From the NCBI GenBank assembly GCA_029239785.1, contig JARBUG010000008.1:1-64000 (forward strand): DNA of 64,000 nucleotides, written 5' to 3'. The first letter of the stretch is position 1, and every line of letters starts with the position of its first letter. Of the stretch, positions 3,135-48,958 are shown piece after piece. A model generated the notes under the pieces. It worked only from the letters and a program-made list of their open reading frames with translations. It was not told where the DNA came from and made no database searches. Position numbers and translations under genes: made by a program. This stretch comes from Symbiobacteriaceae bacterium (GTDB lineage Bacteria > Bacillota > Sulfobacillia > Symbiobacteriales > Symbiobacteriaceae).

Positions 3135-6019
<2,885 letters not shown>

Positions 6020-8660: not shown

Positions 8661-10403
8661 CTACACCCCCAGGCTGACGAGCCGCCCGCCGGAGGGGTCA
8701 ACTAACCCCTGGTCGGTCAGCTTCAACTCCGGAATCACCGACAGCGCCAAAAATGAGAGCGTCATGAACGGCGCCGGAATTGACACGCCCAGTTGCTGCG
8801 CCGCCGCCTCCAGGTCGTCGAGCGCCTCCACCACTTCGGGCAGGGACTGCTGCGACATGAGCCCCGCTACCGGCAGGGGCAGCCGGGAGACCACTGCGTT
8901 GTTGTGAACTGCGGCAAACCCGCCGCCGGTGGCGGCGACAGCCTCCGCCGCGGCCAGAATCTCCTCATCATCAATGCCGGCGACGATGATGTTGTGCGCA
9001 TCATGCGCCACGGTTGATGCGATGGCGCCCCGCTTCAGGCCCAGGCCGTGGACCAGACCGATGCCCACGCCCCCGGTCCGGCCGTGCCGCTCGATCACGA
9101 CGAGCTTGGCAAGGTCCCGGTCGGGGTCGGCCTTGATCTCGCCATGTGACACGGTTGGTGTCATCGTCAGGGACCGGGTCACAATCTGCCCGGGAATCAC
9201 GCCGATCACCCGTACATCGCCGCCCGGGGCGGGGAGGCGCAGACGGTCGGTGGTCAGGTCAGGCAGCTTCACTGTATGTAGCAGGCGTTGGTCGATGGGC
9301 GGCTTCACGTCGGTCAGCGGCTCGCCGTTCCCGGCCACAAGGGCGCCCGCCTTGTACACCGCGGAGCAGGCGAGCGTCGCCGGATCGAGGACGGCCAGGT
9401 CGGCCCAATAGCCCGGGGCGACGGCGCCCCGGCGCCGGATGCCGAAGAACTGGCAGGTATTGATCGTCGCCATGCGCACCGCCGTGGGCAGGTCGAGGCC
9501 GAGCTGGACCGCCTTGCGCACGGCGAAATCCACACCGCCTTCCCGCACCAGGTCGTGGGGATGCTTGTCGTCGGTCACCAGGCAGAAGCGGTCACGGCGC
9601 TCAGGCGTGACACAGGGCAGCAAGTCGGCCAGGTTCCGGGCCGCCGAGCCTTCCCGAATGAAGACGGTCATGCCGATGCGCAGCTTGGCCTCCGCCTCCT
9701 CGGTGTTCAGGCATTCGTGGTCAGAGCCGACGCCCGCGGCTACGTACGCGTCAAGCTGGCGCCCGGTCAAAAGCGGGGCGTGCCCATCGACCGCCTTGTT
9801 ATGGTTTGTCGCCCGCCATGCCTTGTCCAGTTCGGCGGGCTCTCCGGCCACCACGCCGGGGAAGTTCATCAGCTCACCGAGCCCCACGACTCGCTCGCCG
9901 CCGAGCACCTGGTCCAGGTCATCGGGGCTCAGGCGGGCGCCCGCCGTTTCCAGCGGGCTGGCCGACACGCACGACGACGCCGTCAGGTAGACATCAAGCG
10001 GGAGGCCGGCGGTGGCGGACAGGGCCGCCTCGAAGGCGGTGGTGCCGACCACGTTCGCCCACTCGTGGGGGTCCCAGACCACGGCGGTGACGCCCCGGGG
10101 CACCACGGCCCGGGCGTACTCCCGCGGCTCCACCAGGGCCGACTCCAGGTGCACGTGCCCGTCGATGAAGCCGGGCGCCACCAGGGCGCCGCCCAGGTCG
10201 GCGGTCGCCTGCGCCGCCGCGCTCGCGTACGCCGGCCCGAAGCCGGCCACCAGGCGCCCGGCCAGCAATACCGGCCCCGGTTCTACCTTTCCGGTGAACA
10301 CATTCACGACCTGCGCATTCGTCAGCAAAAGCGTGCCGGACTCACGACCGGCGGCCACGGCTACCGCGTACCGAACCTCATCCAGCGTCAGAGGACTCGC
10401 CAT
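8661..10403 (-). CDS. ade: Adenine deaminase
   Basis: It converts adenine to hypoxanthine and ammonia, feeding the purine operon that diverges from it. The 580 residues match the bacterial Ade family. An amidohydrolase metal site is visible (PGFIDGHVHLES near residue 75), followed by the Ade-specific VVWDPHEWANV, the TDDKHPHDL segment and the C-terminal domain (AHDAHNIIVAG, GGGFA). The ATG at 10403 follows AAGGGGGG; the frame extends upstream without a ribosome site. A TATACT -10 box lies 22 nt before the start, so the leader is very short. Adenine entering here would be deaminated and then oxidised by the divergent molybdenum hydroxylase. Confidence 0.95.
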   Translation of the reverse strand: MASPLTLDEVRYAVAVAAGRESGTLLLTNAQVVNVFTGKVEPGPVLLAGRLVAGFGPAYASAAAQATADLGGALVAPGFIDGHVHLESALVEPREYARAVVPRGVTAVVWDPHEWANVVGTTAFEAALSATAGLPLDVYLTASSCVSASPLETAGARLSPDDLDQVLGGERVVGLGELMNFPGVVAGEPAELDKAWRATNHNKAVDGHAPLLTGRQLDAYVAAGVGSDHECLNTEEAEAKLRIGMTVFIREGSAARNLADLLPCVTPERRDRFCLVTDDKHPHDLVREGGVDFAVRKAVQLGLDLPTAVRMATINTCQFFGIRRRGAVAPGYWADLAVLDPATLACSAVYKAGALVAGNGEPLTDVKPPIDQRLLHTVKLPDLTTDRLRLPAPGGDVRVIGVIPGQIVTRSLTMTPTVSHGEIKADPDRDLAKLVVIERHGRTGGVGIGLVHGLGLKRGAIASTVAHDAHNIIVAGIDDEEILAAAEAVAATGGGFAAVHNNAVVSRLPLPVAGLMSQQSLPEVVEALDDLEAAAQQLGVSIPAPFMTLSFLALSVIPELKLTDQGLVDPSGGRLVSLGV

Positions 10404-10557
10404 GTGGAACCCCCCTTTTGCCGCAGTATACCGCAAAATAGTTCGGAAAAGAACCGTCAAGCCTGAAAACATAGAGGAATCCTCGGAAGTGAGAGCGAAA
10501 TACGGCGCAAGATTTGCAGTCTGACTGAATTTCGTGTACCGAGGGAGGCGATCCCTT
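10404..10557. promoter_or_regulatory. Divergent promoter region between ade and the purine operon
   Basis: A 154 bp region between two divergent starts. On the minus strand a strong -10 TATACT (10430-10425) serves ade; its -35 is poor (TTCTTT-like at 18 nt). On the + strand GAGGGAGG (10541-10548) is the ribosome site for the first operon gene. I found no clear + strand promoter and no purine-riboswitch core, so control is probably by a protein factor. Confidence 0.5.
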
Positions 10558-11409
10558 ATGCTTCAGGCAGACGTGCCGGTCTACACGCCGGCCACACTCG
10601 CCGAGGCGCGCCAGCTGCTCCAGGAACCAGGCACCCGCCCCGTGGCGGGCGGCACCGATGCGATGGTCAGGTTCAAGGATGGTGTTTGGCGGCCGACGGC
10701 GTGGGTCAACCTGCTCCGCCTGCGCGGCGAACTCGCCTACATTCGGGAAGATGGCGACTGGCTGGAGGTCGGCGCCCTCACCACCTTCAGCGAGTTGCTC
10801 GCCTCCCGGGTGGTTCGTGAACGCGCCCCGCTGCTGGCCAAGGCGGTCCGAACCGTCGGCGGGCCGGCGATACGGAACATGGGCACCATCGGTGGCAACA
10901 TCGGCACAGCGTCGCCTGCGGGGGATAGCCTGCCGGCTCTGTACGCCCTTGACGCCGAGGTCCTTGTGAACGGCGTAACGACCATCGGCATCGCTGAACT
11001 GATGCTCGGGCCGGGGCGCCTCAAGCTCCAGGCCGGGGATCTGATTACCGGGGTCCGGTTCCGGGCCCAGGCGCCGGACGAGGTCTGCACCTTCGAAAAG
11101 CTCGGGCTGCGGGCAGCGCATGCGATTTCGCTCGCCAGCGTGGCCGTGCGGCTCGCGCCGGGCATGGCCCGGGTCGCCCTGGGCGCCGTGGCGCCCACCG
11201 TCATTCGCGTGCCGGATGCGGAGGCGGCCCTGGTGGCCGGTCATGCGGCCGCCGCCGCGGCTGCTGCCCAGGAAGCTGCCCGGCCGATTTCCGATGTGCG
11301 GGCCAGCGCCGAGTACCGCCGGGCTATGGCCGGGAACCTGCTGCTGCGGGGCCTCATGCGCATGCTCGGCCCAAATCTGGTCTCCCCGATCGGAGGCGAT
11401 CCCCGATGA
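10558..11409 (+). CDS. Molybdenum hydroxylase FAD subunit (CoxM/XdhB type)
   Basis: This is the medium subunit of a xanthine-dehydrogenase-type molybdenum hydroxylase. It binds FAD and passes electrons from the Fe-S subunit to NAD or another acceptor. It is 283 residues long with the FAD_binding_5 motifs AGGTD (30-34) and RNMGTIGGNIGTASPAGD (107-124), and a C-terminal CO_deh_flav_C domain. The ATG at 10558 is 9 nt after GAGGGAGG. Its TGA overlaps the ATG of the next subunit by 4 nt. It is the first gene of a tightly spaced operon reaching 27.1 kb. No flavin-cysteine or Fe-S extension is present, so the three cofactor domains lie on separate chains. Confidence 0.92.
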   Translation: MLQADVPVYTPATLAEARQLLQEPGTRPVAGGTDAMVRFKDGVWRPTAWVNLLRLRGELAYIREDGDWLEVGALTTFSELLASRVVRERAPLLAKAVRTVGGPAIRNMGTIGGNIGTASPAGDSLPALYALDAEVLVNGVTTIGIAELMLGPGRLKLQAGDLITGVRFRAQAPDEVCTFEKLGLRAAHAISLASVAVRLAPGMARVALGAVAPTVIRVPDAEAALVAGHAAAAAAAAQEAARPISDVRASAEYRRAMAGNLLLRGLMRMLGPNLVSPIGGDPR

Positions 11410-13739
11410 CGAACCAGCAGACCTGGATCGGCAAGTCCGTCCACCGGGTCGATGCGCCCGCCAAGCTGAAGGGCGAGCCCGTTTACATGACCGACCGGCC
11501 CCTGGAGAACCCCTGCTTCGGCCGAGTGCTCCGCTCCCGCTATCCCCACGCACGCATCCTCCGCATCGACACGGCCAAGGCCTCGGCCCTGCCCGGCGTC
11601 ATCTGCGTCCTGACGCATAAAGATGTTCCCGGTCTGAACGGCTTCGGTATCGTCATTCCCGACCAGCCGGTGCTCTGCTTCGACAAGGTCCGCATGATGG
11701 GCGACGCGCTGGCGTTGGTGGCGGCGGAGACGCCCGAAATTGCGGCCGCCGCACTCGATCTGATCGAAGTCGATTACGAGCCCCTGCCCATCGTCGATGA
11801 CGCACTCGCCGCCATCATGCCCGGCTCGCCCCTCGTCCACGAGACCGGCAACATCCACCTGCGCACGGTGATTCGCCGGGGCGAGGTGGCGCAGGCCTTC
11901 GCCGAGGCCGCCGTGGTCGTCGATCATGTCTACTTCACGCCCCGGCAGGCCCACATGTTCCTGGAGACCGAGGGCGGCGTGGGCCAGCTCATGCCCAACG
12001 GCGAGCTGCATATTTGGTGCCCGGCGCAGGCCGCGTTCCGGGACCGGCTCCAGGTGGCCCGGCTCCTCGGCTGGGACCCGGAGCGGATTCGTGAGTACTC
12101 CAGCCCGTCCGGCGGCGCCTTCGGCGGCAAGGACGAGCTGACGGTTCAGCATTACCTCGCCCTGCTGGCCCTCCACACGGGCGGGCGCCCGGTCAAAATC
12201 CATCTCTCCCGCGAGGAGTCGACGGTGGCGGGCATCAAGCGGCACCCCTTCATGGTGCAGATGCGGACGGCGGCCGCAGCCGACGGCACCTTCCTGGCGC
12301 AGGAGGCCTTCGTCGTCGCCGATACCGGGGCCTACGCCTCGCTCGGCGGACCGGTGCTGAACCTCGCGATCGAGCACATCGGCGGCGTGTATCGTTTCCC
12401 GAGCCTGAATGTCGAAGGGTATTGCGTCTACACCAACAACGGCATCAGCGGCGCCTTCCGGGGCTTCGGCGTGCCGCAGGTGCTGGTGGCGCTGGAGTCC
12501 AACATCGACGAAATCGCCCGCCGGCTGGGCCGTGACCCGCTCGACCTGCGCCGGCAGAACCTGATTCAGCGCGGCGACCTGTCGGCCATCGGCAACCCGA
12601 TGACGACCGGGGTCGGGAATCAGGCGGTGCTGGAGGCGCTGGAAAACTCGCCAACCTGGAAGGAACGTACCGCAAAAAAGGCGGCCGTTACGGATCCGTG
12701 GAAGCGCCGGGGCGTGGGCATCGGCCTCTGCATGCAGGGCCTCGGCCTGGGCAAGGGGATTCCCGACTACGGCGCCGCCGTCATCGAACTGCTGCCGGGC
12801 GGCAAGTTCAAGGTGGGCATCTCCATTCAGGAGATTGGCACCGGCAACCAGACCGCCTACGCCCAGTTCGCCGCCGAAGCGCTCGGCTGCGATGTGGCCG
12901 ATGTTGAGGTGATTCAGGGCGACACAGGCTACTCCGCCGATGCCGGCACCGTGACCGCCACCCGCTCGGTCTTCACCGGCGGTAAGGCGATTCAAATCAC
13001 CGCTGAAAAGATGGTTGCGCTGCTGCGCTCGACGGGTGCCGAGTCGTACGCCGCAGCCTACGCTGTCGCCCGCGAGCGGGGCCTGGAAACGAAGGTGCGC
13101 GGCTCCTTCGCCTGGCCCGAAGCCGACGAGGAGATTCCCGGGGCGTTCGGCCTGCCGCACCACATTTACGGGTACGGCGCCCAGGCCGCCCTGGTCGAAG
13201 TCGACACCCTGACCGGCGAGGTGCAGGTCCTGGAGGTCGCCTCGGTTGTGGATACCGGCAAATCCATCAACCCCATGGGCGTTGAAGGGCAGTCGGAGGG
13301 CGGCGTCGCCCAGGGCGTGGGCCTTGCCCTCATGGAAGATACGGTCGTTCGCGAAGGACGATTCCTCAATGCGAACATGAGCAACTACATCATCCCCACG
13401 GCGGGCGATGTGCCGAAGGTCGAAACCTTCATCGTTGAGGTGCACGAGGAGAAGGGCCCGTCCGGCGCCAAGGGCATGGGCGAAGTGCCCATCGTGCCGA
13501 CCATGCCAGCCATTTTCGGGGCGATTTACGACGCGGTGGGCGTGCAGATGTTCCGGGCGCCCGCCACGCCGGAGCGGGTCTACATGGCGATGATGGGTGA
13601 TCCATCGGCGACGGAGGATACGCCCGCGTTGCGGGCACGCATCGCCGAAGGCCGGCGGGCGGGGCTTGCGGCCCAGCTTCACCAGACCGAGGGCGAGGGT
13701 TATGCACAGCCCAAGGGCCCCGAAGACGAGGAGGCGTAA
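11406..13739 (+). CDS. xdhA: Molybdenum hydroxylase catalytic subunit (xanthine dehydrogenase family)
   Basis: The large, molybdopterin-cytosine-dinucleotide-binding subunit, 777 residues. The N-terminal Ald_Xan_dh_C domain (about 15-125) is followed by the Mo-binding domain with SGGAFGGKDE (about 236-245), ISGAFRGFGVPQ (about 348-359) and the catalytic glutamate E693 in GAKGMGEVP. Linkage to SsnA, YgeW, YgeY, YqeB, YqeC and ade argues that purines are substrates. YqeB and YqeC are markers of selenium-dependent molybdenum hydroxylases, so a labile selenium ligand is plausible but not visible in the sequence. Whether it oxidises xanthine or another purine, or works in the reducing direction on urate, cannot be decided here. 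Confidence 0.92.
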   Translation: MTNQQTWIGKSVHRVDAPAKLKGEPVYMTDRPLENPCFGRVLRSRYPHARILRIDTAKASALPGVICVLTHKDVPGLNGFGIVIPDQPVLCFDKVRMMGDALALVAAETPEIAAAALDLIEVDYEPLPIVDDALAAIMPGSPLVHETGNIHLRTVIRRGEVAQAFAEAAVVVDHVYFTPRQAHMFLETEGGVGQLMPNGELHIWCPAQAAFRDRLQVARLLGWDPERIREYSSPSGGAFGGKDELTVQHYLALLALHTGGRPVKIHLSREESTVAGIKRHPFMVQMRTAAAADGTFLAQEAFVVADTGAYASLGGPVLNLAIEHIGGVYRFPSLNVEGYCVYTNNGISGAFRGFGVPQVLVALESNIDEIARRLGRDPLDLRRQNLIQRGDLSAIGNPMTTGVGNQAVLEALENSPTWKERTAKKAAVTDPWKRRGVGIGLCMQGLGLGKGIPDYGAAVIELLPGGKFKVGISIQEIGTGNQTAYAQFAAEALGCDVADVEVIQGDTGYSADAGTVTATRSVFTGGKAIQITAEKMVALLRSTGAESYAAAYAVARERGLETKVRGSFAWPEADEEIPGAFGLPHHIYGYGAQAALVEVDTLTGEVQVLEVASVVDTGKSINPMGVEGQSEGGVAQGVGLALMEDTVVREGRFLNANMSNYIIPTAGDVPKVETFIVEVHEEKGPSGAKGMGEVPIVPTMPAIFGAIYDAVGVQMFRAPATPERVYMAMMGDPSATEDTPALRARIAEGRRAGLAAQLHQTEGEGYAQPKGPEDEEA

Positions 13740-13744
13740 CCACG

Positions 13745-14209
13745 ATGGAACTGAAGATGAACGTCAACGGCCAGCCCGTCGCCGTCGAAGTTGCGCCCAC
13801 GGAGCCGCTCCTGCAGGTGCTGCGCGAGCGCCTGGGCCTGGTCGGGGCCAAGGAGCCCTGCGGCAAGGGCGAATGCGGCGGCTGCACGGTGCTCATGAAC
13901 GGCCAGACCGTCAACGCCTGCCTCGTCATGGCCGCTCAGGCTGAGGGCGCCGAAGTGCTGACGGTGGAAGGGTTAGCGGCCCCCGACGGCAAGCTTCACC
14001 CGGTGCAGCAGGCCTTTGTCGAGGCCGGCGCCGTTCAGTGCGGCTACTGCATGACCGGCATGGTCATGAGCGCCTTCTCGCTGCTGCAGCAGAATCCGCA
14101 GCCCACCGAGGCGGAGATCAAGGAAGGCATGGAGGGCAACCTCTGCCGCTGCACCGGCTACCAGAAGGTTTTTGATGCCGTCAACTTGGCTGCGGGCCGT
14201 TTGAGGTGA
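13745..14209 (+). CDS. Molybdenum hydroxylase [2Fe-2S] subunit
   Basis: The small subunit with two [2Fe-2S] clusters, 154 residues. The plant-ferredoxin-like cluster uses C39, C44, C47 and C59 (CGKGECGGC...C). The second, all-helical cluster uses C99, C102, C134 and C136 (CGYC...CRC). It carries electrons from the Mo centre to the FAD subunit. It starts 5 nt after the large-subunit stop and ends 7 nt before the next gene, so the three subunits are made from one message. The order is FAD, Mo, Fe-S. All eight cluster cysteines are present and the length is normal for the family. Confidence 0.94.
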   Translation: MELKMNVNGQPVAVEVAPTEPLLQVLRERLGLVGAKEPCGKGECGGCTVLMNGQTVNACLVMAAQAEGAEVLTVEGLAAPDGKLHPVQQAFVEAGAVQCGYCMTGMVMSAFSLLQQNPQPTEAEIKEGMEGNLCRCTGYQKVFDAVNLAAGRLR

Positions 14210-14216
14210 AACCGGC

Positions 14217-15299
14217 ATGATGCAGTGGGACACGCTGGTGCGGGCCGTCCGGCAGGAGCTGCCGGTCTGCCGGGTGGCCGTGGTGGACGGCCCTGTGCCG
14301 CTCCTGGGAACGCGGCTCGTCGCTGGGTCCTTCGGCGCCACCGATGGCCCGGCCTGGACGGCGCTGCCTGCCGATGTGGCGGGCCTGCCCCGGGAGGCCC
14401 TGGCCGACGGTCGCCCCCGGCTGACCCAGGCGGGCGGGCTGCGGATTTTCGCCGAGCCCATCCTGCCGCCGCCCCGGCTGATTGTGGCCGGGGCCGGGCA
14501 CGTGGCCCTGGCCCTGGCCCCGGCAGCGCAGGCCGCGGGGTTTCGGGTCACGGTCATCGATGACCGGGCCGAATTCGCCCGGCCCGAGCGGTTCCCCGGC
14601 TGCACCGTCATTTGCGATGACATGGCGGCATGCATCGAACGCCTGCGGCCAGATGCGACCACGTTCATCGTGCTGGCCGGGCGGAGCCACGACAAGGACA
14701 AGGAGGCGCTCCGGGCGGCCGTGCAACTGCCCTCCGCCTACCTCGGCATGATGGGGAGCCGCCGCAAAGTAGCGACCCTGCAAAGGGAGCTACTTGAGAC
14801 CGGCGAGGCTACGGTCTGGGCGATGGAGAAGCTGCGGGCGCCCATTGGGCTTGACCTCGGGGCGGAGACGCCCGCCGAGATCGCTGTGGCGATCGTAGCG
14901 GAGCTGATCGCCGTGCGGCGAGGCGGGAGCGGCGCCCCGCTGGCCGGGGCCATGCGCCGGGCGCCCGAGGGCGGCGTGCCCGCCGGCACACTCGAAGGCC
15001 AGCAGGTCTGGCTCGCCCTCGCCGACGCGGTCGAGCGAGGCGAACCCTGCGCCCTCGCCACCATTCTCAGCGTCCGGGGCAGCACGCCCCGCAGCGCCGG
15101 GGCCTGCATGCTCATTCAGAAAAACGGCGCCACCGTGGGCTCGGTAGGCGGGGGCAAGTGGGAGTCTGAAGTCCGGCGCCTCGCCAGCGAAACGGAGCGC
15201 CCCATCCTCATCGAATCTCAGTACCTGGACGAATCAGACATGATCTGCGGCGGCACCGCCGAGGTCTTCATCGAACCCGTCACAAGGAGGCATACGTAG
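14217..15299 (+). CDS. XdhC-family maturation factor with permuted domain order
   Basis: XdhC/CoxI proteins bind the molybdenum cofactor and insert it, after sulfuration or selenation, into xanthine-dehydrogenase-type enzymes. This 360-residue protein has the Rossmann domain (XdhC_C) first: IVAGAGHVALALAPAA near residues 89-104, then GLDLGAETPAEIAVAI near 216. The CoxI-type domain is last: ALATILSVRGSTPRSAGA near 283 and VGSVGGGKWESEV near 313. The other XdhC in this window, at 25540, has the opposite order. Its TAG overlaps the GTG of the next gene. The permutation is visible; its consequence is unknown. Confidence 0.82.
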   Translation: MMQWDTLVRAVRQELPVCRVAVVDGPVPLLGTRLVAGSFGATDGPAWTALPADVAGLPREALADGRPRLTQAGGLRIFAEPILPPPRLIVAGAGHVALALAPAAQAAGFRVTVIDDRAEFARPERFPGCTVICDDMAACIERLRPDATTFIVLAGRSHDKDKEALRAAVQLPSAYLGMMGSRRKVATLQRELLETGEATVWAMEKLRAPIGLDLGAETPAEIAVAIVAELIAVRRGGSGAPLAGAMRRAPEGGVPAGTLEGQQVWLALADAVERGEPCALATILSVRGSTPRSAGACMLIQKNGATVGSVGGGKWESEVRRLASETERPILIESQYLDESDMICGGTAEVFIEPVTRRHT

Positions 15300-16210
15300 T
15301 GGCAAAGCTGTCGGTCGACCTGCTGGGCATGACGTTCCGGAACCCCATCCTGCCCGCCGCCGGCCCCAACGTGGGCAACGGCCGGCAGCTCCGCCTGACC
15401 GCCGAGGGCGGCGCCGGCGGCCTGCTGGCTAAAACCATCTCGGTGCGGGCTGCCGAAGTGCCCCGACCCGACATGGTCCGCTTCGGCCAGACCGGCATGC
15501 TCAACACCGAACTCTGGACCGAGTTATCCCCAGAAGAATGGCTGGACCGGGAGTACGACATCGGCCTGGCCGCGGCCCGGGAACACAACATCCCCTTCCT
15601 GGCCTCCATCGGCTACACGCCCGACGAACTGCGGGCTATCGGCCCCAAGGTCGAAGCCAAGGGCGTCGACGCCATCGAGTTCTCCATTCACTACCTCGAC
15701 CCCGCCCGCCTGATTGACACGGCCCGCGCCTTAAGGGAATCCGTCAAGTGCCCGATTATCGCCAAGCTAACGCCCCACAAGGGCGACCTCGGCGAACTGG
15801 CCGCCATGATCGAACCCTACGTCGACGCGTTCGCCTGCATCAACAGCTACGGCCCGACCCTGCGCATTGACATCGACCGGATGGAGCCCACGCTAGGAAG
15901 CCCACTCGGCTACGGCTGGCTCAGCGGCACGCCCATTCGCCCCCTCGCCCTGCGCTCGGTCTTCGAGGTCGCCCGGCGGGTGAAAAAGCCCGTCATCGGC
16001 GTCGGCGGCATCGCCAACCCGAAAGACGTCATCGCCCACTTCATGGCCGGCGCCTCGGCGGTGCAGGTCTGCACGGCGATTCTGCTGCGGGGCCAGAACT
16101 ACTACGCCAAGCTGGCCCGGGGCGTCAGCGACTGGCTGGACGCCCACGGTTACGACGACATCAACCAGGTGCGGGGCCGCTACCTGGAGCGGCTCGGCCT
16201 GAAAGCTTAG
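15299..16210 (+). CDS. Dihydroorotate-dehydrogenase-like flavoprotein, first copy
   Basis: A TIM-barrel FMN enzyme of the dihydroorotate/dihydropyrimidine dehydrogenase family, 303 residues. Family features are FRNPILPAAGPNVGN near the N-terminus, AKTISVRAAEVP, the barrel strand IIAKLTPH, INSYGPTLRIDID and the FMN phosphate-binding IGVGGIANPKD...GASAVQV (about 222-260). It lacks the C-terminal ferredoxin domain found in the next gene. The start is GTG 15299, overlapping the upstream stop. In this operon it may reduce a purine- or pyrimidine-derived ring, but it is far from pyrimidine biosynthesis genes and the substrate is unproven. The two neighbours could form a heteromer. Confidence 0.82.
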   Translation: MAKLSVDLLGMTFRNPILPAAGPNVGNGRQLRLTAEGGAGGLLAKTISVRAAEVPRPDMVRFGQTGMLNTELWTELSPEEWLDREYDIGLAAAREHNIPFLASIGYTPDELRAIGPKVEAKGVDAIEFSIHYLDPARLIDTARALRESVKCPIIAKLTPHKGDLGELAAMIEPYVDAFACINSYGPTLRIDIDRMEPTLGSPLGYGWLSGTPIRPLALRSVFEVARRVKKPVIGVGGIANPKDVIAHFMAGASAVQVCTAILLRGQNYYAKLARGVSDWLDAHGYDDINQVRGRYLERLGLKA

Positions 16211-16225
16211 AGGGGGTGTGCGGGC

Positions 16226-17341
16226 ATGGCGAACCTTGCCGTTGAACTGACCGGACTCCGCTTCCCGAATCCGATTCTCGCCGGCGCCGGCCCCAGTACC
16301 GAGGGCGCCGCGGCCCTGGCCGCCGCCGCCCGGGGCGGGGCGGGCGGGCTCGTGGCCCGCACCGTGCTGGCGCACCCCTTCCTGCCCGCCGCCGAACCAT
16401 CCGTCGTCCCCTACGGGCGCGACGGCCTGCTGACCAACCAGCGGGGGTCATCCCTCACCGCCGCCGATTGGACTTATCCACAGGACTTGAGCATTCCCGT
16501 CATCGCGAGCCTGGCCGGTACGGCCGCCGAGGTGCTCGAACTCGGCCCGCGGCTGGTGGCGTCCGGCGCCCAGGCCCTGGAGTTCGCCACCGCCTTCCTC
16601 GGCTGGCCCGAGTCGGTCGAGGCGCTCCAGGCCCTGCGCAAGGCAGTCAACGTCCCCATCTGGGCCAAGCTCAGCCTGCGCCACGGCGAAGATATCGCCG
16701 ACCGGGCGGCCCAAATTGAACCCTTCGTCGACGCCTTCGTCTGCATGAGCGGCTTCGGCCCCGTTCTCGATATTGATGTGGATGCGGGCGGCGCCCCCCG
16801 CCTCAGCGACCCCTACGGCTACGGCTGGCTCAGCGGCGCCCCCATTCACCCCATCGCCGTGCGGACGGTCTTCGAAGTCGCCCGCCGGGTGAACAAGCCC
16901 GTCATCGCCAGCGGCGGCGCCATGACCGCCCGGGACGTGGTCGAATTCCTGCAAGTCGGCGCAGTGGCAGTCCAGGTGACCACCCTGCCGATGCTCAAAG
17001 GCCCGCAGGCCTACGAAGCGCTCACCAACGACCTGAACGGCTGGCTCGACCAACACGGCTACGACAGCGTGGCCGACATCACAAACCTCTACCTGAACAA
17101 GTGGCGCCACGGCCAGCGGGTCGTTCTCATCACTGAAGAGGCGCCCAAGCTGGACAAAGCCCTGTGCACGGGCTGCACCATCTGCGGGCTCGTCTGCTAC
17201 TGGGATGCGATTACCGCCAAACCCAAGGCCCTGCCCATCATCAACGCCGACAACTGCTTTGAGTGCGGCCTCTGCGTATCGGCCTGCCCCGAGGGCGCCC
17301 TCAGCTTCCGCCCCCGCACGGAGGTGACCCTGCTCCCATGA
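16226..17341 (+). CDS. PreA-like dihydropyrimidine-dehydrogenase subunit with 2[4Fe-4S] domain
   Basis: A 371-residue paralogue of the preceding protein with the same barrel motifs (FPNPILAGAGPSTE, WAKLSLRHGEDI, VIASGGAMTARDV). A C-terminal ferredoxin domain carries two CxxCxxCxxxC/P clusters (CTGCTICGLVC and CFECGLCVSACPEG, about 305-360). This architecture is that of PreA, the catalytic half of NAD-dependent dihydropyrimidine dehydrogenase. No PreT partner is adjacent; the nearest flavin reductases are NfnB/NfnA at 46.7-49 kb. The last bases overlap the ATG of the ssnA-like gene (ATGA). A role in reductive ring opening during purine breakdown is inferred from context. Confidence 0.85.
   Translation: MANLAVELTGLRFPNPILAGAGPSTEGAAALAAAARGGAGGLVARTVLAHPFLPAAEPSVVPYGRDGLLTNQRGSSLTAADWTYPQDLSIPVIASLAGTAAEVLELGPRLVASGAQALEFATAFLGWPESVEALQALRKAVNVPIWAKLSLRHGEDIADRAAQIEPFVDAFVCMSGFGPVLDIDVDAGGAPRLSDPYGYGWLSGAPIHPIAVRTVFEVARRVNKPVIASGGAMTARDVVEFLQVGAVAVQVTTLPMLKGPQAYEALTNDLNGWLDQHGYDSVADITNLYLNKWRHGQRVVLITEEAPKLDKALCTGCTICGLVCYWDAITAKPKALPIINADNCFECGLCVSACPEGALSFRPRTEVTLLP
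16474..16482 (+). other. DnaA-box 9-mer TTATCCACA
   Basis: A perfect + strand copy inside the PreA-like gene, first of a cluster of five between 16474 and 20766. Confidence 0.6.
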
Positions 17342-18645
17342 AACGGCTCATCGGCCCCGGCGCCGTCGCCACCATGACCGCCAGCGGGGTTATCCACAGC
17401 GGCGGCGTCCTGGTCGAAGGCGACCGCATCACCGCAGTCGCCGCCTACGACGAACTCGCCGAGCTCTACCCCGACGCCGAACGGCTCGACGCCCGGGGCG
17501 CCGTGATCATGCCCGGCCTGACCAACGCCCACACCCACCTCTACGGCCTCTTTGCCCGGGGCTTTGCCTTCGGCGCATCGCCGGCCTCCTTCCGCCAGAT
17601 TCTCGAACAGGTCTGGTGGCGTCTCGACAAAGCCCTCGCCCGCGAGGCCGTCCACCTCTCCGCCCTGTGCGGCCTGGCCGACCACCTCCGCTGCGGCGTC
17701 ACCACCATCGTCGACCACCACGCCAGCCCATCGTACATCGAAGGTTCATTAGATGAGATCGCCGACGCTGCCGAGCACCTGGGCATCCGGGCCTGCCTCT
17801 GCTACGAAGTCACCGACCGGAACGGCCCCGCAGGCGCCGCCGCCGGCATCGCCGAGAACGTCCGCTACCTCAAGGCACGGAGAACGCCCGCCCTCTTCGG
17901 CCTCCACGCCTCCTTCACCCTGAGCGACGAAACCCTCGCTGCCGCACGCCGGACCGCCGACGACCTGGGCGCCAGCTTCCACATCCACCTCGCCGAAGGC
18001 CCCGAAGACCCCGCCCACGCACTTATCCACAGCGGACAGCGTACGGCGCACCGCCTCGCGAAGGCGGGCATTCTCCGCCCCGGCACCTTTGTCGGCCACG
18101 GCGTCCATCTCGACGAAGAAGAAGCCGCCATTCTCGCCTACACCGGCGCCACCCTCACCCACCAGCCCCACTCCAACATGGGCAACGCCGTGGGCTTCCC
18201 CCGCATTCTTCACATGCGGGAGCGGGGCGTCAAGGTCGCCCTCGGTACCGACGGCTACACGCCCGACATGCTCGAGACCCTGCGGGCGGCGGCGACCCTT
18301 CATAGTCACGCGACGGTCACGCCTTCAGCAGGCGTCGGCGAGTTCGCCAACGTGCTCCTCAAAGAGAACCCATCGCTCTTATCCACAGTCTTTCAACAGC
18401 CGATAGGCCGCCTGGAACCCAACGCCGCCGCCGACCTCATCATTACCGACTACCACCCCCCGACCCCCATGACCGCCGACAACTTCCCGTTCCACCTCTA
18501 CTTCGGCATCTCGTCGGCGCACATCCGCACCGTCATCGTGGGCGGGCGGATCGCCGTGCTTGATCATCGCCTCGTCGGCCTCGACGAGGAAGCCCTGTCC
18601 CGACAGGCCCAACACGTCGCCGGGCAGGTCTGGAAACAAATCTGA
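17338..18645 (+). CDS. ssnA: SsnA-like aminohydrolase
   Basis: A 435-residue amidohydrolase of the SsnA/chlorohydrolase group, near the size of E. coli SsnA. Metal ligands are H65 and H67 (AHTHLYG), a histidine in FHIHLAEG, a histidine in GHGVHLDEEE and the aspartate in ALGTDGYTPDM. The family hydrolyses C-N or C-halogen bonds on nitrogen heterocycles. In ygeW/xdh clusters SsnA is thought to act on a purine-derived ring. The ATG at 17338 is chosen because it follows GGAGGTG and starts in the previous stop (ATGA). Three DnaA-box-like 9-mers lie in it, in different reading frames. Confidence 0.87.
   Translation: MKRLIGPGAVATMTASGVIHSGGVLVEGDRITAVAAYDELAELYPDAERLDARGAVIMPGLTNAHTHLYGLFARGFAFGASPASFRQILEQVWWRLDKALAREAVHLSALCGLADHLRCGVTTIVDHHASPSYIEGSLDEIADAAEHLGIRACLCYEVTDRNGPAGAAAGIAENVRYLKARRTPALFGLHASFTLSDETLAAARRTADDLGASFHIHLAEGPEDPAHALIHSGQRTAHRLAKAGILRPGTFVGHGVHLDEEEAAILAYTGATLTHQPHSNMGNAVGFPRILHMRERGVKVALGTDGYTPDMLETLRAAATLHSHATVTPSAGVGEFANVLLKENPSLLSTVFQQPIGRLEPNAAADLIITDYHPPTPMTADNFPFHLYFGISSAHIRTVIVGGRIAVLDHRLVGLDEEALSRQAQHVAGQVWKQI
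17390..17398 (+). other. DnaA-box 9-mer TTATCCACA
   Basis: Perfect + strand copy in the ssnA-like gene, here encoding Val-Ile-His-Ser. Confidence 0.6.
18023..18031 (+). other. DnaA-box 9-mer TTATCCACA
   Basis: Perfect + strand copy in the ssnA-like gene (Leu-Ile-His-Ser). Confidence 0.6.
18379..18387 (+). other. DnaA-box 9-mer TTATCCACA
   Basis: Perfect + strand copy in the ssnA-like gene, in another reading frame (Leu-Leu-Ser-Thr). Confidence 0.6.
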
Positions 18646-19231: not shown

Positions 19232-20617
19232 ATGGCCACAATCATCGCAGGCGGAACGGTTGTTACCGCCGCCGGCCGGATGCTGGCCGATGTCAAAGTG
19301 GAGGGCGCCCGGGTCACCGCCATCGGGGCGGGCCTGCGCACCGCCGGCGACGAGATCATCGATGCGACCGGCTGCTACGTGCTGCCCGGCGCCATCGACC
19401 CGCACACCCATATTGAGTTACCCACAGGCGGCGGCCAGCACAACGCCGACACCTGGCACAGCGGCACGGTGGCGGCGGCCTTTGGCGGCACCACCACCGT
19501 CATCGACATGATCACGCAGGAGAAAGGCGGCACGCTGGCAGATGCCCTGGCCGACTGGCGCCGCCGGGCCGGCCCCGCCGCCGTCGTCGACTACGGCTTC
19601 CACATGGGCATCATCGACGTTTCGCCGCCCGTATTGGACGAGATTGACCTGATGATGCGCGAGGGCGTTACGTCCTTCAAACTCTACACGGCTTACCGCA
19701 ACCGCCTCATGCTGGATGATGCTCACCTGTTCGCAGTCATGCGGCGGGTGGCGGCGGCGAACGGGCTGGTTCTCATCCACGCCGAGAACGGCGATGTGAT
19801 CGATACCCTGGTCGCCGAGGCGGTCGCCCGGGGCGATGTGGCGCCCCAGTTCCATGCCCTCACCCGGCCCGCCGCCGCCGAGGCCGAGGCCACGGCCCGG
19901 GCCTGCCGCCTGGCCGAACTGGCCGGCGCCCGGCTTTACGTAGTCCACGTCACCTGCCGGGAAGCGCTGGCCGAAATCGAGGCCGCCCGGCGCCGGGGCC
20001 AGCCGGTATGGGCCGAGACCTGCACGCATTACCTCTTCTTTACGGCCGATGACCTGGCGCGGCCCGACTTTGAAGGCGCCAAGTGGGTGCTGTCGCCGGC
20101 GCTTCGGACACCGGAAGATCGCGAGGTGCTGTGGACATCGCTTACCCACAGCGTTGAGGTGGTCGCCAGCGACCACTGCCCGTGGACCAACGCCCAGAAA
20201 GCGAAGGGCTGGGAGCGCTTCGACCTGATTCCGAACGGCGCCCCGGGCCTGGAGGAGCGGCTCCCCTTCCTCTATACCTACGGCGTGGTCGAAGGACGCC
20301 TCACCCTGGAAGAGCTGGTCGCCGTCACATCCACCAACCCGGCCAAAATCTTCGGCCTCTACCCCCGCAAGGGCACCATCGCCCCAGGCAGCGACGCCGA
20401 CCTGGTCATCTGGGACCCGCACATCAACCGCACCTGGTCGGCGAAATCCCACCACTGCGGCAGCGACAACACCCCTTACGAGGGGATGTGGGTCAGCGGC
20501 GGCGTCCGGCACCTGCTGGTCCGGGGGCGCCCCGTCATCACCGGAGGCGCGCTGGCCGCCGGTACCGAGGGTTGGGGCACTTACCTGGAAAGGGGCTCAG
20601 ACCGTGCAGTACGTTAA
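19232..20617 (+). CDS. hyuA: Dihydropyrimidinase/D-hydantoinase family hydrolase
   Basis: A 461-residue cyclic-amidohydrolase that opens hydantoin or dihydropyrimidine rings. The binuclear site is complete: H58 and H60 (DPHTH), the carbamylated lysine K150 (TSFKLYTAY), H183 (LIHAEN), H239 (VVHVTC) and D314 (ASDHCPW). The tyrosine of LYTAY is the usual substrate-stabilising residue. It matches HyuA of ygeW/ygeY/ssnA clusters, where it would open the remaining imide ring after purine ring cleavage. The first codon is ATG 19232 after AAGGGGGGA. Its end overlaps the next gene by 14 nt. Confidence 0.92.
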   Translation: MATIIAGGTVVTAAGRMLADVKVEGARVTAIGAGLRTAGDEIIDATGCYVLPGAIDPHTHIELPTGGGQHNADTWHSGTVAAAFGGTTTVIDMITQEKGGTLADALADWRRRAGPAAVVDYGFHMGIIDVSPPVLDEIDLMMREGVTSFKLYTAYRNRLMLDDAHLFAVMRRVAAANGLVLIHAENGDVIDTLVAEAVARGDVAPQFHALTRPAAAEAEATARACRLAELAGARLYVVHVTCREALAEIEAARRRGQPVWAETCTHYLFFTADDLARPDFEGAKWVLSPALRTPEDREVLWTSLTHSVEVVASDHCPWTNAQKAKGWERFDLIPNGAPGLEERLPFLYTYGVVEGRLTLEELVAVTSTNPAKIFGLYPRKGTIAPGSDADLVIWDPHINRTWSAKSHHCGSDNTPYEGMWVSGGVRHLLVRGRPVITGGALAAGTEGWGTYLERGSDRAVR

Positions 20618-21842
20618 GCACCTCGAATGCGTTCTCTGCGGCAAGACCTACCCGGCCTCGCCGACCGCCACCACCTGCCCCGCCTGCGGCCCCAGCGGCA
20701 TCCTCGATGTCGTCTTCGACTACGATGCCATCTCGCACCGTGAAGACCGCGACGAGGTTATCCACAGCACGGACAACGGCCTCTGGCGCTGGATGCCCCT
20801 GCTGCCAGTTGAGCCGGACGGGCCCCGCGGCCCGCTCCTGCCGGGCAATACGCCCCTAGTCCCCGCCCCCCGCCTCGCCGAAGCGCTCGGCGTCGGTCGC
20901 CTCTGGCTGAAAGATGAAGGCCGGGCACCCACCGCCTCGCTCAAGGACCGCGCCTCCGCCATCGGCGTCGCCAAGGCGCTCGAAGTGGGCGCCCGCACCG
21001 TCGCCACCGCCTCCACCGGCAACGCTGCCTCCTCCCTCGCCGGCGCCTGTGCCGCCGCCGGGCTCCGCTCGGTCATCTTCGTGCCGAAAACGGCCGCCGA
21101 AGGTAAGGTCGCCCAGCTCCTCATCTTTGGGGCGACCGTCTTCCAGGTGCAGGGTTCCTACGCCGACGCCTTCCGCCTCGCCACCGAGGCCATCGCAGAG
21201 CAACCCGGCTGGTACAACCGGCTCTCCGGCATCAACCCCTACCTGGTCGAAGGCAAAAAGACCTGCGGTCTGGAAATCGCCCTCGACCTGAACTGGAAAG
21301 TGCCCGACTGGGTCGTCGTCTCCGTCGGTGACGGCTGCACCGTGGCCGGCATCGCTCGGGCGTTCATCGAACTGAAGCGCATCGGTTGGATCGACCGGGT
21401 TCCCCGCATTCTCGGTGTACAGGCGGCAGGCTCCCGGGCCATCGCCGACGCCTTCGCCACCGAGCGCTACGCCCCGGGCGGCGAAGATACCATCGCCGAC
21501 GGCATCGCCGTAGGCGAACCCCGCAACTGGATCAAGGCCGTCACCCGCATCAAGGCCACAGGCGGCACCTTCACCCTCGTCACCGACGACGAGATTCGTG
21601 AAGCCATGCGCCTGACCGGCCGCCTCACCGGCGTCTTCGCCGAACCGGCCGCGGGCGCCGCTGTCGCAGGCCTGCAAAAGGCCACCGTGCAAGGGATCAT
21701 CGGGAAGTCCGACTCGGTCGCCGTCGTCGTGAGCGGCAGCGGGCTGAAGGACGTGCGCCGGGCCATCGAGGCCGCCGGGGCGCCGCTCAAAGTCCAGCCG
21801 ACCATCGAAGCGGTCCGGGCCGCCCTCCCGCCTATGAATTAG
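20604..21842 (+). CDS. Threonine-synthase-like PLP enzyme (in the ygeX position)
   Basis: A 412-residue fold-type II PLP enzyme of the threonine synthase/diaminopropionate lyase superfamily. An N-terminal zinc-ribbon-like module (CVLCGKTY...CPACGPSG, about 8-32) precedes the catalytic domain. PLP lysine is in ASLKDRAS (about 112-119), the phosphate loop is near STGNAASSLAGACAAAG, and a glycine-rich loop follows in VSVGDGCTVAGIA. The GTG start at 20604 lies inside the previous gene. In E. coli-type clusters this slot is held by YgeX, 2,3-diaminopropionate ammonia-lyase. I infer that this protein makes the corresponding amino-acid elimination here, but true threonine synthase activity cannot be excluded; no thrA or thrB is nearby. 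Confidence 0.8.
   Translation: MQYVKHLECVLCGKTYPASPTATTCPACGPSGILDVVFDYDAISHREDRDEVIHSTDNGLWRWMPLLPVEPDGPRGPLLPGNTPLVPAPRLAEALGVGRLWLKDEGRAPTASLKDRASAIGVAKALEVGARTVATASTGNAASSLAGACAAAGLRSVIFVPKTAAEGKVAQLLIFGATVFQVQGSYADAFRLATEAIAEQPGWYNRLSGINPYLVEGKKTCGLEIALDLNWKVPDWVVVSVGDGCTVAGIARAFIELKRIGWIDRVPRILGVQAAGSRAIADAFATERYAPGGEDTIADGIAVGEPRNWIKAVTRIKATGGTFTLVTDDEIREAMRLTGRLTGVFAEPAAGAAVAGLQKATVQGIIGKSDSVAVVVSGSGLKDVRRAIEAAGAPLKVQPTIEAVRAALPPMN
20758..20766 (+). other. DnaA-box 9-mer TTATCCACA
   Basis: Perfect + strand copy in the threonine-synthase-like gene (Val-Ile-His-Ser frame); last of the cluster of five. Confidence 0.6.
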
Positions 21843-21876: not shown

Positions 21877-23079
21877 TTGTTGGATGAGGTGCGGGAGAAA
21901 GCCCGCGCGTACCAGGATGACGCCGTCGCTTTCCTGCGCGACATCATCGCCATTCCTTCCACCAGCACCAACGAAAAGGCCGTCGTCGAGCGCATCGCCG
22001 ACGAAATGCGCAAAGTCGGCCTCCAGGACGTGCACTTTGCCCCCAACGGCTGCGTCCTGGGCCGCATCGGCAGCGGCCCCATCACCATTCTCTACGACTC
22101 CCACATCGACACCGTCGGCATTGGCGATCCGGCCGCCTGGCCGCACGACCCGTTCCAGGGCAAGGTCGAAAACGGCATCGTCTACGGCCGCGGCGCCTCT
22201 GACAACAAGATGGCCATCGCCACCATGGTCCACGGCGCCCGCATTCTCAAGGAACTCGGCCTCGACGGCGCCTTCACCCTCTGGATCGTTGGCGTCGTTG
22301 AAGAGGAGTCCTGCGACGGCTGGGCCGTGGGCGACCTGATCAAGACCGGCCACATCAAGCCGGACTACGTCGTCATCGGCGAGACCACCGACCTTGACAT
22401 TTACCGGGGCCACCGGGGCCGCTGCGAAATCAAAGTGACGGTCAAGGGCGTCTCCTGCCACGCCAGCGCCCCCGAACGGGGCAACAACGCCCTCTACAAA
22501 ATGGCCCGCATCATCAGCGGCATCGAGCAGCTGAACGAGCGGCTCGCCTACGACGAGTTCCTCGGCAAGGGCACGATCGTGGCGTCGTATCTCGAATCGA
22601 AGACGCCGTCGCTCAACGCCGTGCCGGATGAGGCCGTCCTCTACATCGACCGCCGCCTCACCGTCGGCGAAAGCGCCTCGTCGGCGATGGCTGAGATCAA
22701 AGCCTTGCCGGGCGCCGAAGAGGCGACGGTGGAACTGCTCCGCTATAGCGACCCGTCGTGGACCGGTTACGAGAAAGATGTCCCCAAGGACTACCCGACC
22801 TGGGTTCTGCCCGAGGAGCATCCCCTCGTGCAGGCCGGCGCTGAAGCGGCCCGCAACATTCGTGGCACCGAGCCCGCCATCAGCCGGTGGGTCTTCTCGA
22901 CCGACGGCATCGCCACCATGGGCCAGCTCGGCATTCCCACCATCGGCTTCGGCCCGGGCGAGGAGTTCTATGCCCACACCGTTCAGGATCAGGTTCGCAT
23001 CGACGATATGGTGACCGCCATGGCGTTCTACGCCGTGTTCCCGCAGATTCTCACTAACCGTGTGGAAGGGAGCCGTTAG
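21877..23079 (+). CDS. ygeY: YgeY-like M20-family hydrolase
   Basis: A 400-residue zinc-dependent M20/M28-type amidohydrolase or peptidase, typical of YgeY. Metal-site motifs are YDSHIDTVGIG (about 69-79), YGRGASDNKMA (about 107-117), VGVVEEESCDG (about 139) and the C-terminal AHTVQDQV. The dimerisation domain contains KGVSCHASAPERGNNAL. The start is TTG 21877, preceded by AAGGGGTGA. It lies between the PLP enzyme and YgeW, the same neighbourhood as in E. coli. In purine-degradation models YgeY trims a carbamoylated or peptide-like product of ring opening; the exact bond is not shown by sequence. Confidence 0.9.
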   Translation: MLDEVREKARAYQDDAVAFLRDIIAIPSTSTNEKAVVERIADEMRKVGLQDVHFAPNGCVLGRIGSGPITILYDSHIDTVGIGDPAAWPHDPFQGKVENGIVYGRGASDNKMAIATMVHGARILKELGLDGAFTLWIVGVVEEESCDGWAVGDLIKTGHIKPDYVVIGETTDLDIYRGHRGRCEIKVTVKGVSCHASAPERGNNALYKMARIISGIEQLNERLAYDEFLGKGTIVASYLESKTPSLNAVPDEAVLYIDRRLTVGESASSAMAEIKALPGAEEATVELLRYSDPSWTGYEKDVPKDYPTWVLPEEHPLVQAGAEAARNIRGTEPAISRWVFSTDGIATMGQLGIPTIGFGPGEEFYAHTVQDQVRIDDMVTAMAFYAVFPQILTNRVEGSR

Positions 23080-46657: not shown

Positions 46658-48067
46658 TTATGCGTGAACCGCAGCCTGCTTCTCCAGGTACTCATGAATC
46701 GCCCGGGCCGCCTTCTGCCCGGCGCCCATGGCCAGAATCACCGTCGCGGCACCCGTTACCGCGTCGCCACCGGCAAACACCCCGGGCCTGGTCGTTGCCC
46801 CCGTCTCCGGGTCGGCCACCACGCAGCCCCACTTGTTCGACTGCAGCCCCGGCGTAGTCCGTAGCAAAATCGGGTTCGGCGTAGTGCCCAGCGCCATAAT
46901 CACGGTATCCACAGGCATCACAAACTCCGAGCCCTTCACCGTCACTGGCTTGCGGCGGCCCGACTCGTCCGGCTCGCCCAGTTCCATCTTCACGCACTTC
47001 AGGCCGGTCACCCAGCCGTCCTCGTTAGCCAGAATCTCCACCGGGTTCGTCAGGAAGTTGAACTGCACGCCCTCTTCCTCGGCATGCTCAAACTCCTCAC
47101 GCCGGGCCGTCATCTCATGCTCCGTCCGCCGGTAGACAATCATCGCCTGCTCGGCGCCCACCCGCAGGGCGGTCCGCACCGAGTCCATGGCCGTATTGCC
47201 GGCGCCTATGACGGCGACCCGCTTGCCGACCTTGAGCGGCGTGTCATACTCGGGGAACTTATAGGCCCGCAGCAGGTTAATCCGGGTCAGGAACTCGTTG
47301 GCGGAGTAAACGCCACTGTAGTTCTCCCCGGGAATGCCCATAAACTTCGGCAGGCCGGCGCCCGTCCCGATGAAGACCGCGCTGTACCCGTCCTTCTCCA
47401 TCAAATCATCAATCGTCACGGTCCGGCCCACCAGCACGTTGTAGCGGAACTCAACGCCCATCTCCTCCAGGCGCCGCACATCCGTCTCTACAATCTCCTT
47501 GGGCAACCGGAACTCGGGAATGCCATACATCAGCACGCCGCCCGCGGCGTGAAGCGCCTCAAACACGGTTACCTGATAGCCCAGGGCCGCCAGGTCGCCA
47601 GCGCAGGTCAGGCCGGCAGGGCCAGCGCCCACCACTGCTACCTTAACGCCCCGCGACGCCACCGGCTCAAGCTCCCCAAAGCCGTGCTGCCGCTCCCAGT
47701 CGGCCACAAACCGCTCCAGGCGGCCAATCGCAACGGGCTCAAACTTCACGCCCATCACACACTTGGACTCGCACTGCTCCTCCTGCGGGCAGACGCGGCC
47801 GCAAATGGCGGGCAGGCGGTTCACTTCACGCAGCCGCTTGACCGACTCCGCAACCTTGCCCTCCGCCAGCAAAGCGACAAAGTCCTTCACCGGCGACTGC
47901 ACAGGGCAGCCAATTTCGCAGGTCGGATTCTTGCACTTGAGGCACCGCTGCGCTTCTTCAATTGCCATCTCCAGCGTATAACCAAGCGCCACCTCATCAA
48001 AACGGTTCACCCGAACGGCGGCGTCCAGCAGCGGCATGGGGTGCCGATCTCGCTTCATTTTGGCCAT
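46658..48067 (-). CDS. nfnB: NfnB / GltA-type NADPH-dependent flavoprotein
   Basis: A 469-residue flavoprotein of the glutamate-synthase small-subunit family. The N-terminal Fer4_20 region has conserved cysteines (CLKCKNPTCEIGCPV and CGRVCPQEEQCESKCV, about 42-105) for two [4Fe-4S] clusters. An FAD GxGxxG is in VVGAGPAGLTCAGDL (about 145) and an NADPH GxGxxA in VIGAGNTAMDSVRTA (about 285). Immediate linkage to the FAD/[2Fe-2S] subunit downstream makes this the NfnB half of NADH-dependent reduced ferredoxin:NADP oxidoreductase rather than glutamate synthase; no gltB is near. The start follows GGAGGAGC. Confidence 0.9.
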   Translation of the reverse strand: MAKMKRDRHPMPLLDAAVRVNRFDEVALGYTLEMAIEEAQRCLKCKNPTCEIGCPVQSPVKDFVALLAEGKVAESVKRLREVNRLPAICGRVCPQEEQCESKCVMGVKFEPVAIGRLERFVADWERQHGFGELEPVASRGVKVAVVGAGPAGLTCAGDLAALGYQVTVFEALHAAGGVLMYGIPEFRLPKEIVETDVRRLEEMGVEFRYNVLVGRTVTIDDLMEKDGYSAVFIGTGAGLPKFMGIPGENYSGVYSANEFLTRINLLRAYKFPEYDTPLKVGKRVAVIGAGNTAMDSVRTALRVGAEQAMIVYRRTEHEMTARREEFEHAEEEGVQFNFLTNPVEILANEDGWVTGLKCVKMELGEPDESGRRKPVTVKGSEFVMPVDTVIMALGTTPNPILLRTTPGLQSNKWGCVVADPETGATTRPGVFAGGDAVTGAATVILAMGAGQKAARAIHEYLEKQAAVHA

Positions 48068-48082
48068 GACTGTCTGCTCCTC

Positions 48083-48958
48083 CTACCGTACTGCGGCCGT
48101 CTTCTTGCACTGGCACTCGTGCTCATGTTCATGCTGGTGCTCGAAATGCTCCAGCGCCGCCTTCTCCTCGGCCTTGTACATCTTCGTGCGCCGTGTGACC
48201 TCTTCGAAGTCCACCTTGTGGGCATCGAAGCAAGGCCCGTCCACGCAGGCGAAGCGGTTCTCGCCGCCGACCCGCACACGGCAGGCGCCGCACATGCCGG
48301 TACCATCGAGCATAATGGGGTCCATGGAAGCGAGGGTATAAATGGCGTAGGGACGGGTCACCTCGGCCACCGCCCGCATCATGGGCATCGGGCCGACGGC
48401 GATGACAAGGTCATAGCCCTCTTCAGCCTTGATCTTCTCCTGCAGCACGCCGGTTACAAAACCCTTGTAGCCATATGAGCCATCGTCGGTGCAGGCGAGA
48501 AAACGGTCGACGTTGGCGGAAACCTCGTCGGCCAGAATCAGCAGGTCCTGGTTCCGGGCGCCCACAATCGCGTCCACCGTAATCCCGGGCCGGCCGTGCA
48601 GCGCCTTGGCGATGGTCAGAATCGCCCCCGTGCCGAAGCCGCCGCCCACCAGGGCGACACGGCCCTGCGCCGGCAACTCCACCGGTGATCCGAGTGGACC
48701 GGCAAAGTCATGAATGTAGTCACCCTCGCCGAGCTGGGCCAGCCACTTGGTGGTCTTGCCCACTTCCTGCACCACAATCGTTACGGTCCCCGCTTCCCGG
48801 TCGAAGTCCGTAATCGTAATGGGAATGCGCTCGCCCGTCGCGCCGACACGCAGAATGATGAACTGCCCGGGCTGCGCCGACCGGGCCACCAGCGGCGCAT
48901 CAACGACATAAAGCCGGGTTACCGGTGTCAGCTGACGCATCTTGAGAATGCGATACAT
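48083..48958 (-). CDS. nfnA: NfnA-type ferredoxin-NADP reductase subunit with metal-binding-like tail
   Basis: A 291-residue FAD/NAD-binding protein like the dihydroorotate dehydrogenase electron-transfer subunit: FAD domain (about 1-95), NAD domain (VALVGGGFGTGAILTIAKAL, about 102-121) and a C-terminal [2Fe-2S] site (MCGACRVRVGG...CVDGPC, about 223-243). With NfnB it forms the electron-bifurcating transhydrogenase. The last residues are unusual: HFEHQHEHEHECQCKK, a His/Glu/Cys-rich tail normally absent from NfnA. The start follows GGAGGGATAAGTGA. It could balance NADPH, NADH and ferredoxin for the lactate and purine pathways in this window. Confidence 0.88.
   Translation of the reverse strand: MYRILKMRQLTPVTRLYVVDAPLVARSAQPGQFIILRVGATGERIPITITDFDREAGTVTIVVQEVGKTTKWLAQLGEGDYIHDFAGPLGSPVELPAQGRVALVGGGFGTGAILTIAKALHGRPGITVDAIVGARNQDLLILADEVSANVDRFLACTDDGSYGYKGFVTGVLQEKIKAEEGYDLVIAVGPMPMMRAVAEVTRPYAIYTLASMDPIMLDGTGMCGACRVRVGGENRFACVDGPCFDAHKVDFEEVTRRTKMYKAEEKAALEHFEHQHEHEHECQCKKTAAVR

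Follow-up and report, generated by a model that had tools for sequence, protein, structure and literature searches.

Two paralogous genes lie side by side in a cluster of purine genes in the window, the whole 64,000-nucleotide stretch of a Symbiobacteriaceae assembly that we analyzed, and the question they raise is whether their products are two enzymes or the two halves of one. A sequence-only reading had described adjacent DHODH-like paralogues at 15299-17341, a 2[4Fe-4S] tail on the second alone, and no PreT subunit; our analysis bears out all of these observations.

Two DHODH-type paralogues in a purine gene cluster

The first protein, DHO1 (303 aa, GTG start), has a PF01180 barrel (E=1e-27), and no Fe-S family was found among its family matches; the second, DHO2 (371 aa), matches PF01180 (E=3.9e-20) and, in two stretches, Fer4 (E=3.5e-10). 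The two genes are in the same frame with a gap of 15 nt, and their products share 41% identity across 304 aligned columns (E=3e-68). The DHO1 start shares one base with the stop of an XdhC-family gene, and the start of SsnA overlaps the stop of DHO2. On the 5' side stand genes for xanthine dehydrogenase (XDH)-type subunits and the XdhC-family factor, with adenine deaminase on the opposite strand, and on the 3' side follow SsnA, an XRE-cupin regulator, a HyuA-type hydantoinase (40% identical to E. coli HyuA), a PLP enzyme, YgeY, and a carbamoyltransferase (Table 1).

Table 1. Coordinates, strands, and supporting matches of features in the window
Feature	Position	Strand	Match or remark
Adenine deaminase	8661..10472	-	TIGR01178 516.2 bits, cut-off 472.5
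Xanthine-dehydrogenase-type FAD, Mo, and 2Fe-2S subunits	10534-11409, 11406-13739, 13745-14209	+	Family matches, all below equivalog cut-offs
XdhC-family maturation factor	14217..15299	+	NF045664 253.2 bits, below cut-off 350
DHO1: DHODH/UacX-type barrel, no ferredoxin tail; proposed catalytic chain	15299..16210	+	PF01180
DHO2: degenerate barrel and C-terminal 2[4Fe-4S] domain; proposed electron-input chain	16226..17341	+	PF01180, Fer4
DHO2 ferredoxin tail, last residues FRPRTEVTLLP	17114..17338	+	8 Cys; 56% identity to DHO2b tail
SsnA, amidohydrolase	17338..18645	+	TIGR03314 457.4 bits, cut-off 455.5
HyuA-type hydantoinase/dihydropyrimidinase	19232..20617	+	TIGR02033 536.3 bits, cut-off 393.25
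YgeY	21877..23079	+	TIGR03526 498.5 bits, cut-off 321.5
NfnAB-like pair: NfnB 46658-48067, NfnA 48083-48958	46658..48958	-	TIGR01316 600.9 bits (cut-off 471.75); NF004862 381.7 bits (cut-off 220)

The place of YgeX (20604-21842) is taken by the PLP enzyme, which is threonine-synthase-like and shares 26% identity with YgeX of E. coli over 180 aa, and that of YgeW (23083-24072) by the carbamoyltransferase, which scores below the YgeW cut-off. A formate-dehydrogenase-like molybdoenzyme (27323-29386, minus strand; TIGR01591 290.9 bits, cut-off 666.25) adjoins the cluster; in some bacteria formate is needed for urate breakdown.

Several family assignments were tried on the pair and rejected. DHO1 and DHO2 score 121.7 and 121 bits as PreA (NF006183, cut-off 335) and 148 and 109.8 bits as PyrD, dihydroorotate dehydrogenase (NF005574, cut-off 269), and a better PF01180 match on contig C61 (274.9 bits) speaks against DHO1 as the cell's biosynthetic PyrD. 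The YgfK profile (TIGR03315) reaches at best 284.6 bits in the assembly against a cut-off of 835.3, and BLASTP of both proteins against E. coli YgfK gave no match at 1e-3. Because its middle part is GltD/PreT-like, this profile also served as a proxy in the search for PreT: across the assembly (5.5 Mb, 91% complete, contamination estimate 4.9%) it gave one strong match, at 46679-47944 of the window, the nine others listed scoring at most 34.9 bits. That gene adjoins a PyrK/NfnA-like gene and reads as NfnB; a GltD-like protein thus exists about 29 kb off, but no PreT was found beside the pair, and no gene of the window was identified as PreT. A 984-aa ORF on contig C207 (L010, 3285-6239, minus strand) has weak DHODH matches near its start and, by eye, apparent membrane segments and a kinase-like end.

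A second locus and the descent of the pair

The same assembly holds a second pair, at 2704-5497 of L009 (contig C125) and 1-579 of L047 (contig C222). C125 encodes SsnA2, DHO2b (383 aa), and an XdhC-family protein, with the C-terminal 102 residues of DHO1b at the contig end, and the N-terminal 193 residues of DHO1b lie at the end of C222, near XDH genes; reading the two ends as one split DHO1b, the gene order DHO1-DHO2-ssnA is common to both loci. DHO1b is 72-76% identical to DHO1, and DHO2b is 38% identical to DHO2 in the barrel and 56% in the tail. The GC contents of C125 and C222 differ (0.678 and 0.616, compared with 0.640 for the window), and these contigs could come from a related organism, the contamination estimate being 4.9%; the pattern recurs in either case. 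A second pair beside a second ssnA in the same assembly indicates that the arrangement is more than chance. At the position of E. coli XdhD Glu606, the Mo subunit of the window has Thr and that of the second locus (L047, near 3712-5922) has Glu, like XdhD itself; the two loci may carry out differing XDH steps.

In a tree of barrels that includes single-chain relatives, DHO1 groups with DHO1b (100/98), the sister of this clade being a tailed single-chain protein, L048 (99/95), and DHO2 groups with DHO2b in another clade (95/90). End branches are 0.20 and 0.21 for DHO1 and DHO1b and 0.99 and 2.42 for DHO2 and DHO2b, and branches as long as the latter two may join falsely, as the tree program warns. 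An AU test did not reject a single clade of all four proteins (p 0.086), nor the same clade with L048 added (p 0.321). As the sister of one of 31 single-chain relatives, all of which join barrel and tail, DHO1 most likely descended from a tailed protein and lost its tail.

We further surveyed related genomes for similar arrangements. DHO2 has a match at E 1e-20 in 16 of 61 genomes near that of the window; across 154 genomes of the class, DHO1 has one at E 1e-40 in 15 and DHO2b in 7, and at these class-survey limits only the window's own genome has more than one match. An alignment of UacX, a single-chain yanthine reductase, matches at E 1e-55 in 76 of 398 genomes drawn evenly from the phylum, and among the five candidates scored per genome no adjacent pair was found elsewhere, eleven other genomes having at least two matches that are never adjacent. 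Across the class and phylum surveys the DHO1-DHO2 tandem turned up in a single assembly, which weighs against the reading of a divided reductase favored below. Matches listed in other genomes are open frames of at least 360 aa, except in G448 (279, partial). A contig scan, queried with a single protein and not an alignment, returned two loci, with L058 (a 46-residue match) left out.

Relatives share the purine context: 20 of 21 loci, L064 being the exception, have at least one neighbor with a best match to an XDH subunit, HyuA, adenine deaminase, or SsnA, where flanks of about 1.5 kb each side were compared with 20 window proteins only and some matches are weak (SsnA 26-31%). These relatives needed an open frame of more than 330 aa (21/21 passed) and were picked as best matches, which biases the set towards tailed proteins. 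At L086, L089, L090, and L092, the XDH Mo subunit beside the UacX match is in two pieces on separate ORFs, either a split subunit or a frameshift.

Site residues and ferredoxin tail on the two chains

As a yardstick for the barrels we used 65 columns at least 90% conserved among the 31 single-chain relatives, each of which has barrel and tail together in one protein. DHO1 keeps 56/65 of these columns and DHO1b 33/36 and 25/29 in its two fragments; DHO2 keeps 42/65 and DHO2b 34/64, with K45, N69, E71, W73, S183, and others (DHO1 numbering) gone from both. In a HMMER alignment, pig DPD residues K574, N609, N668, K709, N736, and T737, which we take to bind FMN and pyrimidine, correspond to DHO1 K45, N69, S129, K156, N182, and S183; these positions read KNSKNS in DHO1, KNTKNS in DHO1b, RTAKSG in DHO2, and QHDLGA in DHO2b. 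The sequences thus show DHO1 with the site residues of the single-chain relatives but no tail, and DHO2 with the tail but most of those residues lost, a pattern repeated at the second locus. Since the site of the Fe-S chain itself is degenerate in both DHO2 copies, DHO1 more likely carries the only active site.

The reading we favor, and hold to be somewhat probable, is that gene duplication with complementary losses has split a UacX-type purine reductase into these two chains, which are predicted to form a heteromer. Unlikely, though the best placed of the alternatives, is that DHO1 and DHO2 are separate enzymes, DHO1 a homodimer fed by free ferredoxin and DHO2 acting on a different substrate with its own site. 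The intact frame and confidently predicted fold of DHO2 would suit this, as would its retention of K156 and of the phosphate-site GG; DHO2 may therefore still bind FMN, a point against a pair with one site. However, none of the six DPD-matched positions has the same residue in DHO2 as in DHO2b, so that a new site common to the two copies is not seen, which favors loss over a shared new function. The fast-changing part of DHO2, moreover, is the barrel and not the tail. Tail identity minus barrel identity is +0.176 between DHO2 and DHO2b, compared with a mean of -0.146 (sd 0.074, maximum +0.059) among the relatives, none of whose 465 pairs, which share ancestry and so are not independent, is as high.

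A heteromer as proposed, acting on a pyrimidine or another ring instead of a purine intermediate, we judge quite improbable. Kinship with DHODH and DPD and the dihydropyrimidinase-type HyuA downstream speak for it, but the neighbors are SsnA, YgeY, xdh-type genes, and adenine deaminase, and the DPD Cys loop is not present, H131 and Y132 each being kept in 26/31 relatives.

Both tails end in FRPR(T/D)EVTLL, an ending not seen in the relatives whose sequences were inspected for comparison. That DHO2 is a functionless, decaying duplicate is very improbable. Its fast-diverging barrel, with the long end branches given above, would suit this reading, but frames are open at both loci with eight cysteines in each tail, the tail identity to DHO2b exceeds the 21-45% of 220 relative pairs with barrel identity below 50%, and its GC3 (0.868) resembles that of neighboring genes (0.846-0.888).

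The proposed two-chain reductase and known systems

In the divided purine reductase, DHO1 and DHO2 would pair as a heterodimer in which electrons pass from a donor, likely reduced ferredoxin, to the clusters of DHO2 and on through the chain interface to the FMN of DHO1; the ferredoxin could perhaps be reduced by the NfnAB-like pair, a putative member of the system. DHO1 would reduce an 8-oxopurine, likely yanthine or a near relative, and SsnA would then open the ring of the product. The barrel of DHO2 would be kept for holding the ferredoxin domain in place. We give even chances to the stronger form of this proposal, an obligate heterodimeric purine reductase derived by complementary loss from a DPD-like homodimer, with a dead barrel retained solely so that its ferredoxin domain faces the flavin of the partner chain.

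The DHO2 monomer is predicted with a mean pLDDT of 90.6 and pTM of 0.82, the last seven residues falling below 50. Its model superposes on pig DPD 530-1006 with Z 37.1 and rmsd 7.6 over 350 residues (26% identity), compared with Z near 36 and rmsd about 2.1 over about 290 residues for DHODHs, barrel only, so the monomer model does not position the tail as DPD does, a point against the pair model. A DHO1-DHO2 read-through fusion, for which relatives were aligned on the DHO1 half only, gave a mean pLDDT of 72.6 and pTM of 0.50, the DHO2 part being poor.

E. coli uses XdhD for the reduction of urate to yanthine, YgfK for that of yanthine, and SsnA for opening the ring, and in C. difficile the yanthine reductase is UacX, published in 2025 as a single protein that is probably ferredoxin-dependent; UacX and SsnA with reduced methyl viologen converted yanthine (PMC12507026). 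As far as the published description goes, UacX resembles the DHO pair as a PF01180 flavoprotein with no FAD domain, likely driven by ferredoxin and clustered with ssnA, hyuA, and ygeY, but has on one chain the site residues and Fe-S tail that are here in DHO1 and DHO2, respectively (PMC12507026). YgfK of E. coli would act at the same step as the pair, but is an FAD/NAD(P)H enzyme.

PydAc, a ferredoxin-dependent dihydropyrimidine dehydrogenase, shares with the proposed pair the FMN barrel, Fe-S domains, reduced ferredoxin as donor, and lack of an FAD domain, but reduces uracil, and in C. pasteurianum has one Fdx domain on a second ORF, described in the part of the source covered as an Fdx domain only and not as a barrel paralogue (PMC7332683). 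The FMN of each DPD chain receives its electrons from the C-terminal clusters of the partner chain; DPD differs from the proposed pair as a homodimer with an FAD domain, catalytic Cys671, and both sites active (PMC8097209). A figure legend colors the pig enzyme by this cross-chain scheme and the PydAc model likewise (PMC7332683); a differently worded passage puts each FMN domain close to its "corresponding C-terminal domain", possibly that of its own chain, which would speak against the cross-chain reading (PMC8156676). If electrons cross between the chains of a DPD-type homodimer, one chain can drop its tail and the other its site, provided that they pair. Trypanosomatid deoxyhypusine synthase likewise joins an enzyme to a catalytically dead paralogue, but there the paralogue activates, and no electron delivery is described in the portion of the source covered (PMC3663545). 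A literature search, mostly at the level of abstracts and largely outside subscription papers, found neither a UacX nor a PreA that consists of two chains and has a degenerate barrel.

The sequence-only reading had also proposed a heteromer in which one chain receives electrons through Fe-S clusters and the other adds a second active site, an arrangement new for purine catabolism. Its electron-input chain fits the sequences, if indirectly, and its second active site does not, given the degenerate site of both DHO2 copies. The claim of novelty was too strong in view of single-chain UacX; the new element is the division of the reductase between two paralogous chains.

Within the literature covered, cross-chain electron delivery in the DPD family rests on structures. 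The pair, if our reading is true, would be a natural demonstration of electrons reaching FMN in trans, with one active site per dimer, and having flavin site and wiring on separate chains would permit a direct test, as each half can be altered alone. Reductive purine breakdown, which attracts interest because of urate in the gut, would also gain a further layout beside those of YgfK and UacX.
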